NCBI RefSeq assembly: GCF_007004665.1
Contig: NZ_ML660052.1
Span: forward strand, 806,001-870,000
From: Denitrobaculum tricleocarpae
Lineage (GTDB): Bacteria; Pseudomonadota; Alphaproteobacteria; Kiloniellales; Kiloniellaceae
Length of the DNA stretch: 64,000 nt
Direction: 5' to 3'
Shown here in pieces: positions 5,098 through 8,090 of this stretch (its first letter is position 1; the number at the start of each line of letters is the position of its first letter). The notes beneath the pieces were generated by a model that was given only the letters and a program-made list of their open reading frames with translations, was not told the DNA's origin and made no database searches. Made by a program: the position numbers and the translations under genes.

Positions 5098-5111
5098 TTG
5101 ATCGATATCAA
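5098..5111. promoter_or_regulatory. FNR/FixK (Anr-type) binding site upstream of the POR operon
   Basis: TTGATCGATATCAA matches the FNR/FixK consensus TTGAT-N4-ATCAA at every defined base. Centred at about 5104.5, it would put a class II start (-41.5) near 5146, with a possible -10 around 5132-5138 (GGTAAC). The first POR gene starts at 5200. This indicates activation when oxygen is low. Confidence 0.8.
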
Positions 5112-5199
5112 GGTTTCATCTTCCCTGTCCGGGTAACTTGACCGCATTGCAGCGTGGCGTCTGCAAAGGACGCGCAACAAAAACAATGCGGGGCAGGGA

Positions 5200-5760
5200 A
5201 TGTTTCAGGTTCGAATTCACGGCCGCGGCGGCCAGGGTGTTGTGACGGCGGCGGAGATGCTGTCGATTGCCGCATTTCTGGAAGGTAAACACGCCCAGGC
5301 CTTTCCCAGCTTCGGGTCGGAGCGCATGGGCGCGCCGGTGGTGTCTTACTGCCGCATCGACGATAGAGAGATCCGTGCGCGCGAGCCGATCCTCGCGCCG
5401 GATGCCTTGATCATCCAGGATCCGACCCTGTTGCAGTCCGTCGATGTGTTTCAGGGTCTCAATCCCGAAGGTTTTATCCTGATCAACTCGCGCCGCTCCT
5501 TCGAGGATCTGGGGATCGCGGAGTTCGTGTCCGGATTTCCGGCTCATCATGTCTGCGATGTCGGGGCCACGGAACTGGCCGTCAAGCACGTTGGCCGGCC
5601 GGTCCCCAACGCGGCATTGCTCGGGGGTTTTGCCGCCATCTCCGGCCAGATCCACATGGAGTCCGTTGAGAAGGCGATCGAACAGAAGTTTCCGGGAACG
5701 ATCGGCGCTGCCAACGTGGCCGCCGCACGCGAAGCTTTCGAGCTGGCCCAGGCTGCATGA
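5200..5760 (+). CDS. porG: 2-oxoacid:ferredoxin oxidoreductase, gamma subunit
   Basis: 186-residue gamma subunit of the pyruvate/2-oxoacid:ferredoxin oxidoreductase family, which oxidatively decarboxylates 2-oxoacids to acyl-CoA and reduces ferredoxin. The N-terminal signature RIHGRGGQGVVTAAEML is the standard gamma-subunit start, followed by FPSFGSERMGAPV and PNAALLGGFAA. It is the first gene of the operon gamma-alpha-beta-flavoprotein, behind an FNR/FixK box. The substrate (pyruvate or another 2-oxoacid) cannot be decided from this subunit. Confidence 0.93.
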   Translation: MFQVRIHGRGGQGVVTAAEMLSIAAFLEGKHAQAFPSFGSERMGAPVVSYCRIDDREIRAREPILAPDALIIQDPTLLQSVDVFQGLNPEGFILINSRRSFEDLGIAEFVSGFPAHHVCDVGATELAVKHVGRPVPNAALLGGFAAISGQIHMESVEKAIEQKFPGTIGAANVAAAREAFELAQAA

Positions 5761-5805: not shown

Positions 5806-7074
5806 ATGCTGAAGCAGGTTGAAGGATCGGTCGCCGTTGCCGAGGCGGTCGCCCTCTGCCGGCCCGAAGTGGTCTGCGCCTATCCCATCACGCCGCAGAC
5901 CCACATCGTCGAGGGTGTCGGCGCGCTGGTGAAATCCGGCGCACTTGAAAACTGCGAATTCATCAATGTGGAATCCGAATTCGCGGCGCTTTCGGTTGCC
6001 ATCGGCGCTTCGGCGGCGGGTGCGCGGGCCTATACCGCGACGGCCAGCCAGGGCATCCTCTTCATGGCGGAGGCGGTCTATAACGCCGCTGGCCTGGGCC
6101 TGCCCATCGTCATGACGGTCGGCAACCGCGCCATCGGGGCGCCCATCAACATCTGGAACGACCATACGGATGCCATGTCCGTGAAAGACGCAGGCTGGAT
6201 CCAGCTCTTTGCCGAGACCAATCAGGAGGCCGTGGATCTGCATATTCAGGCCTTCCGGCTGGCGGAGGAACTGAGCTGTCCGGTGATGGTCTGCATGGAC
6301 GGCTTTATCCTGACCCATGCCTATGAGCGGGTCGATGTTCCATCCCAGGAGGAAGTGGACGCCTTCCTACCGCCCTACGATCCGGTTCAGGTGCTCGATC
6401 CGGCGGATCCCTATTCCATTGGGGCCATGGTGGGGCCCGATGCCTTCACGGAGGTGCGCTATCTCGCCCATGACAAGCAGCTTCAGGCCCTGCAGCTGAT
6501 CCCCGAGATCGCCTCGGTGTTCAAGGATGTCTTTGGCCGGGAATCCGGCGGGCTGCTCCATCCCTATCGCACGGAGGGTGCCGAGACGGTCGTGGTTGCT
6601 CTGGGCTCGGTCAACGGCACCATCAAGGAGGTCGTCGATGCCATGCGCGAGGACGGGGCCGCGGTCGGGTCGGTCAGCATATGTTCGTTCCGGCCCTTCC
6701 CTCTGGCGGAGCTGAAAGCCGCGCTGGCGGGCGCCAGGAACATCGTGGTGGTGGAAAAGAGCCTCGCGCCGGGCCTCGGCGGTGTCGTTGCTTCCAATGT
6801 CCGCATGGCGATGCAGGAGACACCGCGTCCCGTCCATACCGTGATCGCGGGGCTCGGCGGGCGCCCCATCACCACCGCCTCACTCCGCAGGGTCGTGACC
6901 GAAGCGGCTTCGGGCACCTTGCCGGACGTGCATTTCCTCGACCTCGACGAGGCTGTCGTCGCACAGGAAATCGCGCGCGCCAAGAAAACCCGGCGCTCGG
7001 GTCCGGCCGCGGAGAATATCCTGAAGCACCTTGCGTCAGCGAAACCCACCGATACTGCGGGAGCCCTGCCATGA
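5806..7074 (+). CDS. porA: 2-oxoacid:ferredoxin oxidoreductase, alpha subunit
   Basis: 422-residue alpha subunit. It shows the pyrimidine-binding-fold start (VAEAVALCRPEVVCAYPITPQT), the conserved NVESEFAALSVAIGAS and TATASQGILFMAEAVY segments, and a C-terminal transketolase-C-like domain (ICSFRPFPLAEL, VVEKSLAPG). Together with the beta subunit it forms the thiamine-diphosphate active site. GGGAG precedes ATG 5806. The gene ends in an ATGA overlap with the beta-subunit gene, showing tight translational coupling. Length and motifs fit pyruvate-type (PorA) rather than the large fused enzymes. Confidence 0.93.
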   Translation: MLKQVEGSVAVAEAVALCRPEVVCAYPITPQTHIVEGVGALVKSGALENCEFINVESEFAALSVAIGASAAGARAYTATASQGILFMAEAVYNAAGLGLPIVMTVGNRAIGAPINIWNDHTDAMSVKDAGWIQLFAETNQEAVDLHIQAFRLAEELSCPVMVCMDGFILTHAYERVDVPSQEEVDAFLPPYDPVQVLDPADPYSIGAMVGPDAFTEVRYLAHDKQLQALQLIPEIASVFKDVFGRESGGLLHPYRTEGAETVVVALGSVNGTIKEVVDAMREDGAAVGSVSICSFRPFPLAELKAALAGARNIVVVEKSLAPGLGGVVASNVRMAMQETPRPVHTVIAGLGGRPITTASLRRVVTEAASGTLPDVHFLDLDEAVVAQEIARAKKTRRSGPAAENILKHLASAKPTDTAGALP

Positions 7075-8090
7075 CCGAAGAAAGCGCGCTGCAACGGGTC
7101 AAGTTCTACCAGACCGGCACCCATACTGTCGGGAACCGCCTGATGGACGATGCCGCCCGCAGCGTCCAGGCCTCGATGAACCGTTCGAACGCCATCACGT
7201 CGGGGCACCGCGCCTGTCAGGGCTGCGGGGAAGCGCTGGGCGCGCGCTATGCACTGGACTCCGCCATGCGGGCCGCCGAGGGGCAACTGGTCGCGGTGAA
7301 CGCGACGGGATGCCTCGAGGTCTTTACCACGCCTTATCCCGAAACCTCCTGGCAGATTCCCTGGCTGCATTCGCTCTTCGGCAATGCGCCCGCCGTCGCC
7401 ACCGGCGTGGCCGCGGCCATGCGGCGCAAAGGGCGCGACAAGGTGAAGGTCGTGGCCCAGGGCGGCGACGGCGGCACCACCGACATCGGCTTCGGCTGTC
7501 TCTCCGGCATGTTCGAGCGGAACGACGACGTGCTCTACATCTGCTACGACAACGAAGCCTATATGAATACCGGCGTGCAGCGCTCGTCGGCCACGCCGCC
7601 GGCTGCGCGCACAGCCACCACGCCGGCCCTCGGCGACGCGCCGGGGAATGTGTTCGGTACGGGCAAGAACATGCCGCTGATCGCCATGGCCCACAACATT
7701 CCCTACGTGGCGACGGCGAGCGTTGCCGACCTCCACGATCTTGAGGCCAAGGTCACCCGGGCCATGTCCGTTTCAGGGTCGCGCTACATCCACATCATGG
7801 TGCCATGCCCGCTCGGCTGGGGCTCCGCGCCCTGCGACACGATCCGCATCGCGCGGCTGGCGGTGGCCTGCGGCCTCTTCCCGCTCTTCGAGGCCGAACA
7901 CGGCGAGGTGGTGCGGACCAGCAAGATCCGCCGCCCCGTGCCGGTGGAGGATTACCTCCGGCCACAGCGCCGTTTCGCGCACCTCTTCAAGAAGGGCCAT
8001 GAAGATAAGGAGCGGATTGCCGCCCTCCAGCGCATGGCGGACAGCAACATCAGCCGCTTTGGCTTGTTCGCTGAAGGAGGCGAGTCATGA
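7071..8090 (+). CDS. porB: 2-oxoacid:ferredoxin oxidoreductase, beta subunit
   Basis: 339-residue TPP- and [4Fe-4S]-binding subunit. Visible cluster ligands are CQGC (Cys49, Cys52), the Cys of NATGCLEV (Cys81) and the Cys of VPCPLGW. The TPP motif is GGDGGTTDIG (residues 131-140) with CYDNEAYMNTG downstream. All four PorB-type cysteines are present, so the intramolecular cluster should be functional. The ATG overlaps the porA stop, and its own stop overlaps the start of the flavoprotein gene (ATGA on both sides), so the operon is translated as a coupled unit. Confidence 0.94.
   Translation: MTEESALQRVKFYQTGTHTVGNRLMDDAARSVQASMNRSNAITSGHRACQGCGEALGARYALDSAMRAAEGQLVAVNATGCLEVFTTPYPETSWQIPWLHSLFGNAPAVATGVAAAMRRKGRDKVKVVAQGGDGGTTDIGFGCLSGMFERNDDVLYICYDNEAYMNTGVQRSSATPPAARTATTPALGDAPGNVFGTGKNMPLIAMAHNIPYVATASVADLHDLEAKVTRAMSVSGSRYIHIMVPCPLGWGSAPCDTIRIARLAVACGLFPLFEAEHGEVVRTSKIRRPVPVEDYLRPQRRFAHLFKKGHEDKERIAALQRMADSNISRFGLFAEGGES

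Follow-up and report, generated by a model that had tools for sequence, protein, structure and literature searches.

A predicted class II FNR-type promoter upstream of a 2-oxoacid oxidoreductase operon in Denitrobaculum tricleocarpae

A palindrome of the FNR/FixK type stands before a set of 2-oxoacid oxidoreductase genes in Denitrobaculum tricleocarpae, and raises the question of whether the box switches these genes on when oxygen is low. The whole stretch of DNA analysed, referred to here as the window, is 64 kb long, and its features are given in Table 1. The box upstream of porG is real. As the earlier note had stated, TTGATCGATATCAA agrees with TTGAT-N4-ATCAA at all ten defined bases, and 88 bp lie between the end of the box and the porG ATG. 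A pattern search found this single exact occurrence in the window; shuffled windows contained 0.02 exact matches on average, with one or more in 2 of 100 shuffles. When one mismatch was allowed there were three sites against 1.11 expected, a count reached by 9 of 100 shuffles, and the two weaker sites, at 5473 and 46603, were therefore rejected as chance level.

Table 1. Positions of the promoter elements and genes in the window
Feature	Position	Strand	Basis
FNR/FixK-type box TTGATCGATATCAA	5098..5111	+	10/10 defined bases of TTGAT-N4-ATCAA
Predicted -10 hexamer TAACTT	5134..5139	+	22 nt after box, class II spacing; offset enriched over 33 sites
Predicted transcription start	5146..5146 (about; base A)	+	arithmetic: box centred at -41.5
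porG, gamma subunit of 2-oxoacid oxidoreductase, 186 aa	5200..5760	+	PF01558 8.9e-40; TIGR02175 198.6 bits (cut-off 81.1)
porA, alpha subunit, 422 aa	5806..7074	+	PF01855, PF17147; PorA_Arch 444.5 bits (below cut-off 550)
porB, beta (TPP) subunit	7071..8090	+	PF02775; best solved match 9bt4 chain C, 5.3e-87
GltD/NfnL-like FAD-NAD(P) subunit with fused PorD-type double [4Fe-4S] domain, 545 aa	8087..9724	+	PF07992, PF14691, Fer4 models

Conservation was examined firstly among close relatives. A PorG orthologue (E 1e-30 or better) is found in 2 of 23 genomes of the family, both from the genus itself, ie in two of its four genomes. One congener (G003) also has the operon; its box is the same, and three positions differ over the 102 bp that run from the box to the ATG. 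Identity extends over roughly the first 86 bases of porG as well, so that this pair by itself cannot single out the promoter. At 1e-40, 15 of the 61 genomes of the order have an orthologue. An exact box lies within 150 bp of porG at seven of these 15 loci and a one-mismatch box within 93 bp at three more; two have one-mismatch boxes only farther out (-191 and -226), and the remaining three have no box within one mismatch in the 300 bp upstream of porG. The search was widened by a scan of genome contigs, in which the best 80 of 426 relatives were examined. All four genes occur in the same order in 64 of the best 80; the stretches from the other 16 reach no farther than about 2.9 kb from the start of porG, the distance at which the fourth gene would be expected. 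An exact box was present no more than 250 bp before porG in 9 of the 80 and a box with at most one mismatch in 21, while 19 permuted palindromes gave at most 0 exact matches and 2 with one mismatch or fewer.

The 15 loci of the order and the best 80 of the 426 relatives, minus L060 and L089 (which nearly duplicate L046 and L084), make up a set of 93. The core TTGA-N6-TCAA occurs within 140 bp before porG at 33 of these 93 loci, from alpha- and betaproteobacteria, which are not 33 independent events; eleven permuted palindromes and eleven other spacings were each found at 0-1 loci. The core is absent within the same 140 bp at the other 60, including all 19 rows labelled Rhodocyclaceae, and FNR control is therefore not general for the operon. 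These 60 loci, the exact matches in the occasional shuffled window and the fact that at least two of the genome's exact sites (see below) fall inside predicted reading frames are all compatible with a chance palindrome of no function, porG being transcribed from some other promoter. That reading is set aside by the recurrence of the core at a third of the loci against 0-1 in the controls, together with the shared distance to a -10-like hexamer described below, and we give it the smallest probability of any considered here.

The records with a box come from Kiloniellaceae, Hyphomicrobiales, Rhodospirillales/Rhodospirillaceae, other families of the same order, Comamonadaceae and other Betaproteobacteria. 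On a PorG tree the box label, which here includes one-mismatch boxes (34 of 93 loci, without L060 and L089), appears in several separate parts and requires 13 changes, at least six of them forced by starred branches. The tree was made by a quick method from PorG only, 33 of its 89 inner branches have support below 80, and its shuffled control is a lenient one, since the set includes near relatives. The PorG proteins of L054 to L059, from other families of the order, are placed among mostly betaproteobacterial sequences, a placement that horizontal transfer would explain; the aligned porG start is an ATT codon in L054, L055 and L056. Locus L047 has two exact boxes before the operon, at -146 and -64.

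The position of the box relative to a -10 element was determined over 33 box sites (the set without L046 and L060). The match to TATAAT has its maximum 22 nt after the box, with a mean of 2.48, followed by 2.12 at a spacer of 21, and 2000 letter shuffles gave a match of at most 2.06 at any offset. An A at position 2 together with a T at position 6 of the hexamer is seen at 14 of the 33 sites at 22 nt, compared to 7 at 21 and 6 at 23. The candidate hexamer of porG itself is weak, having three of the six bases of TATAAT. The 22-nt spacing is constant across the loci although the sequence of the spacer varies; it is the geometry of class II FNR promoters, and no other observation speaks as strongly for an activator role of the box. 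FNR can also repress, and the porG start is a predicted one, which leaves place for another promoter that the box might overlap or block. Such a role would not suit the 2-oxoacid oxidoreductase family, whose members are generally oxygen-sensitive, since the enzyme would be repressed at low oxygen, and the spacing retained despite differing spacers is that of activation. Repression is thus a very improbable reading of the box.

Across the genome the exact palindrome is found 22 times in 6.44 Mb and 0 times when read backwards; a control palindrome, TGATT-N4-AATCA, occurs once, and twice read backwards. The earlier note had proposed a search for further sites, and some of the 22 do stand before genes of the kinds that FNR is known to control. 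Neighbouring genes were identified from their reading frames with Pfam or NCBIfam models. One exact box lies 212 bp upstream of an SCP2-domain gene; the next gene is a peptidase-U32 gene, and we take the two to be ubiT-ubiU. Others precede genes for FtsH and for a hemerythrin-domain protein as well as further genes; several have no evident target. Another lies 34 bp before hemN, a known target in FNR-type regulons according to passages of PMC4999443. A TorA/BisC-type molybdopterin S/N-oxide reductase gene (L145:7383-10245, on C5) has an exact box 125 bp before its reading frame; its TIGR00509 score is 802.8 bits, below the cut-off of 1017.55.

Two exact boxes, with a divergent Crp/FNR regulator, belong to a set of genes on C16 (L147:529-7093) consisting of a large subunit, a Rieske subunit and two di-haem peroxidases. 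The large and small subunits pass arsenite-oxidase-type models, with 434.4 bits (cut-off 359.05) and 116.8 bits (cut-off 95.65), and the arrangement resembles the idrABP1P2 layout of iodate reducers given in passages of PMC8692401. The reading of the set as a putative iodate-reduction operon rests on this layout; the string 'Kiloniell' is absent from the main text of that paper.

The genome contains 30 matches to PF13545, seven of them with E below 1e-10, and the best is C9:290017. An FNR-family gene of the kind sought by the earlier note (fnr, fixK or anr) is thus present, and one of the note's grounds for abandoning its reading, a genome lacking such a gene, falls away. Cysteines C34, C37, C45 and C133 of this protein align with the FNR cluster region (C-x2-C-x7-C and a fourth Cys), the third being two residues off the FNR spacing, and its recognition helix has the form E-x-x-S-R, with ETVSR aligned to ETISR of FNR. 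It scores 197.5 bits with the FnrL equivalog (NCBIfam, Rhodobacter type), which has a cut-off of 300. An exact box lies 146 bp upstream of the reading frame. The boxed gene shares its neighbourhood (L144:6003-10629, on C9) with the start of a FixL-like kinase gene about 1 kb away (246.4 bits, under the cut-off of 850) and with a fixJ gene about 3 kb away (268.6 bits, over the cut-off of 255).

The same E-x-x-S-R helix is present in C16:19817, which has no N-terminal cysteine motif and adjoins two exact boxes, and in three FtrB-like proteins (C6:338664, C18:50996 and C6:280735); by this likeness, all four could use the same box. According to passages of PMC4999443 the sites of FnrN and FixK are much alike, and those of Anr and Dnr are indistinguishable in passages of PMC5398030, so that the regulator which binds could differ. 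The box might then be real and serve mainly another Crp/FNR protein such as C16:19817, or the C9 gene, with its FixL-like and fixJ neighbours, might be governed mostly by FixLJ in the manner of FixK. The signal would be nitric oxide, some other oxidant or FixL-sensed oxygen instead of direct sensing by FNR. We consider this unlikely, because the C9 protein possesses each of the four cluster cysteines and gives the best PF13545 match of the genome, while the neighbours of the C16 regulator suggest that its own target may be the idr-like operon.

The four genes downstream of the box are consecutive on the same strand. The porB ATG overlaps the porA stop by four bases, as does the flavoprotein ATG the porB stop. 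The gamma, alpha and beta domains and the PorD-type ferredoxin of the four-subunit 2-oxoacid oxidoreductase superfamily are all present, PorD being fused to the flavoprotein, in which the GltD/NfnL-like part is followed by the C-terminal PorD-type part. This protein exceeds the cut-offs for both PRK12771 (788.7 bits, cut-off 516) and PorD_KorD (65.5, cut-off 60.05). In family searches porB was represented by 7155-8087, ie without its first 28 codons, and in that form reached 63.8 of the 261.9 bits of the PorB_KorB subfamily model. No pyruvate synthase equivalog of NCBIfam was reached (PorA 444.5 of 550, PorB 346.3 of 405, PRK08534 206.5 of 225, porB again without the 28 codons), and substrate and acceptor are therefore inferences. 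The operon is a predicted 2-oxoacid oxidoreductase whose substrate is probably pyruvate. Judging by the last gene, the acceptor may be NAD(P)+, and a Y-R-R motif follows the nucleotide fold at 43 of the 45 loci where a pattern search located that fold, an arrangement which would favour NADP(H) over NAD. The earlier note had called the enzyme a 2-oxoacid:ferredoxin oxidoreductase; the 2-oxoacid core is borne out by Pfam and NCBIfam, while 'ferredoxin' is unproven, and the enzyme is possibly NAD(P)-coupled and not ferredoxin-only.

The four-subunit pyruvate:ferredoxin oxidoreductase 9bt4 shares the gamma, alpha and beta subunits, and porB aligns with its chain C over most of its length, with matching C-x2-C cysteines and TGCLEV and PCPxGW motifs. 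The window's operon differs from it in the fusion of the delta subunit to a GltD/NfnL-like flavoprotein and in the missed equivalog cut-offs. The NADH-dependent phenylglyoxylate dehydrogenase PadEFGHI has a similar 2-oxoacid oxidoreductase core and also a GltD-like subunit; identity with it was rejected on scores far below the cut-offs (PadE 154.7 of 300, PadG 270.1 of 700 and PadI 197.4 of 700 bits). In the pyruvate:NADP+ oxidoreductase (PNO) of Euglena a PFOR core is joined to an NADP-reducing flavoprotein of a different family from the one in the window. The two would work alike, the parts here being separate subunits.

The genome also has a pyruvate dehydrogenase E1 alpha gene (512.6 bits, cut-off 393.85) and a cbb3 oxidase gene, ccoN (768.8 bits, cut-off 583.15), with a one-mismatch box 49 bp before the ccoN reading frame. 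With these and the other low-oxygen genes present, the operon appears to be an accessory route for low-oxygen conditions, not the hidden route of a strict aerobe. The low-oxygen route proposed by the earlier note is therefore retained in accessory form, and its picture of a simply aerobic organism is not, given the cbb3 oxidase, the TorA/BisC-type reductase and the idr-like operon. Two partner processes were considered and rejected: support of nitrogenase in a NifJ-like role, as no nifH in the genome is over the cut-off (best 29.6 of 394.35 bits), and denitrification, as neither NirK nor NapA, the two searched for, is over the cut-off. A COX1-family gene at C6:275152 has no NCBIfam match at 1e-20, and its 4251-base locus contains neither an exact nor a one-mismatch box; its neighbours are presumably norC, norB and norQ.

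The earlier note's interpretation of the box and the POR operon is supported by these comparisons, and we think it highly probable that porGAB and the flavoprotein gene are activated by FNR at low oxygen from a class II promoter. In this model we infer binding, start site, oxygen response, co-transcription, substrate and electron acceptor. The palindrome would act as operator for a class II promoter dependent on FNR. At low oxygen the FNR/FnrL-type regulator C9:290017 would hold an iron-sulphur cluster and dimerise, and the dimer on the box at -41.5 would help RNA polymerase to start at the predicted position, giving a putative porG-porA-porB-gltD/porD transcript. With oxygen the cluster would be lost and the operon turned off, as would suit an oxygen-sensitive TPP/iron-sulphur enzyme. 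The enzyme would decarboxylate pyruvate, or a close 2-oxoacid, to the acyl-CoA, and the electrons would most likely reach NAD(P)+ by way of the PorD and flavin domains of the fusion protein. The likeness to alphaproteobacterial class II FNR/FnrN/FixK promoters, as presented in passages of PMC4999443 and PMC5398030, extends to the palindrome, the -10 spacing for a box at -41.5, a regulator of the same kind in the genome, and the occurrence of sites before hemN and before the gene of the regulator itself. The difference lies in the target, here a pyruvate/2-oxoacid oxidoreductase operon: the alphaproteobacterial FnrN/FixK regulon described in passages of PMC4999443 comprises mainly redox and haem genes, and the word 'pyruvate' is absent from the main text of that paper. 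A literature search over titles and abstract starts, with most subscription papers outside its scope, gave no paper on FNR control of such operons and none on an NAD(P)-linked enzyme built in this way, both being weak negatives.

A wider proposal is offered tentatively, and we are inclined to doubt it. The operon may encode an oxygen-repressed, multi-subunit pyruvate:NAD(P)+ oxidoreductase similar in effect to Euglena PNO, which would have spread horizontally among facultative alpha- and betaproteobacteria, many lineages having their own class II FNR promoter, and would replace pyruvate dehydrogenase at low oxygen, yielding NADPH.

If FNR activation of the operon is correct, the organism, and perhaps other carriers of the operon too, would possess a second way of turning pyruvate into acetyl-CoA, switched by FNR, alongside pyruvate dehydrogenase and with a different electron balance. 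The idea is testable, since a named strain, Rhodoferax antarcticus ANT.BR (L113), carries the operon with an exact box at -105. The switch would be readable from about 45 bases of promoter, and a step of central carbon metabolism would be added to the alphaproteobacterial FnrN/FixK regulon.
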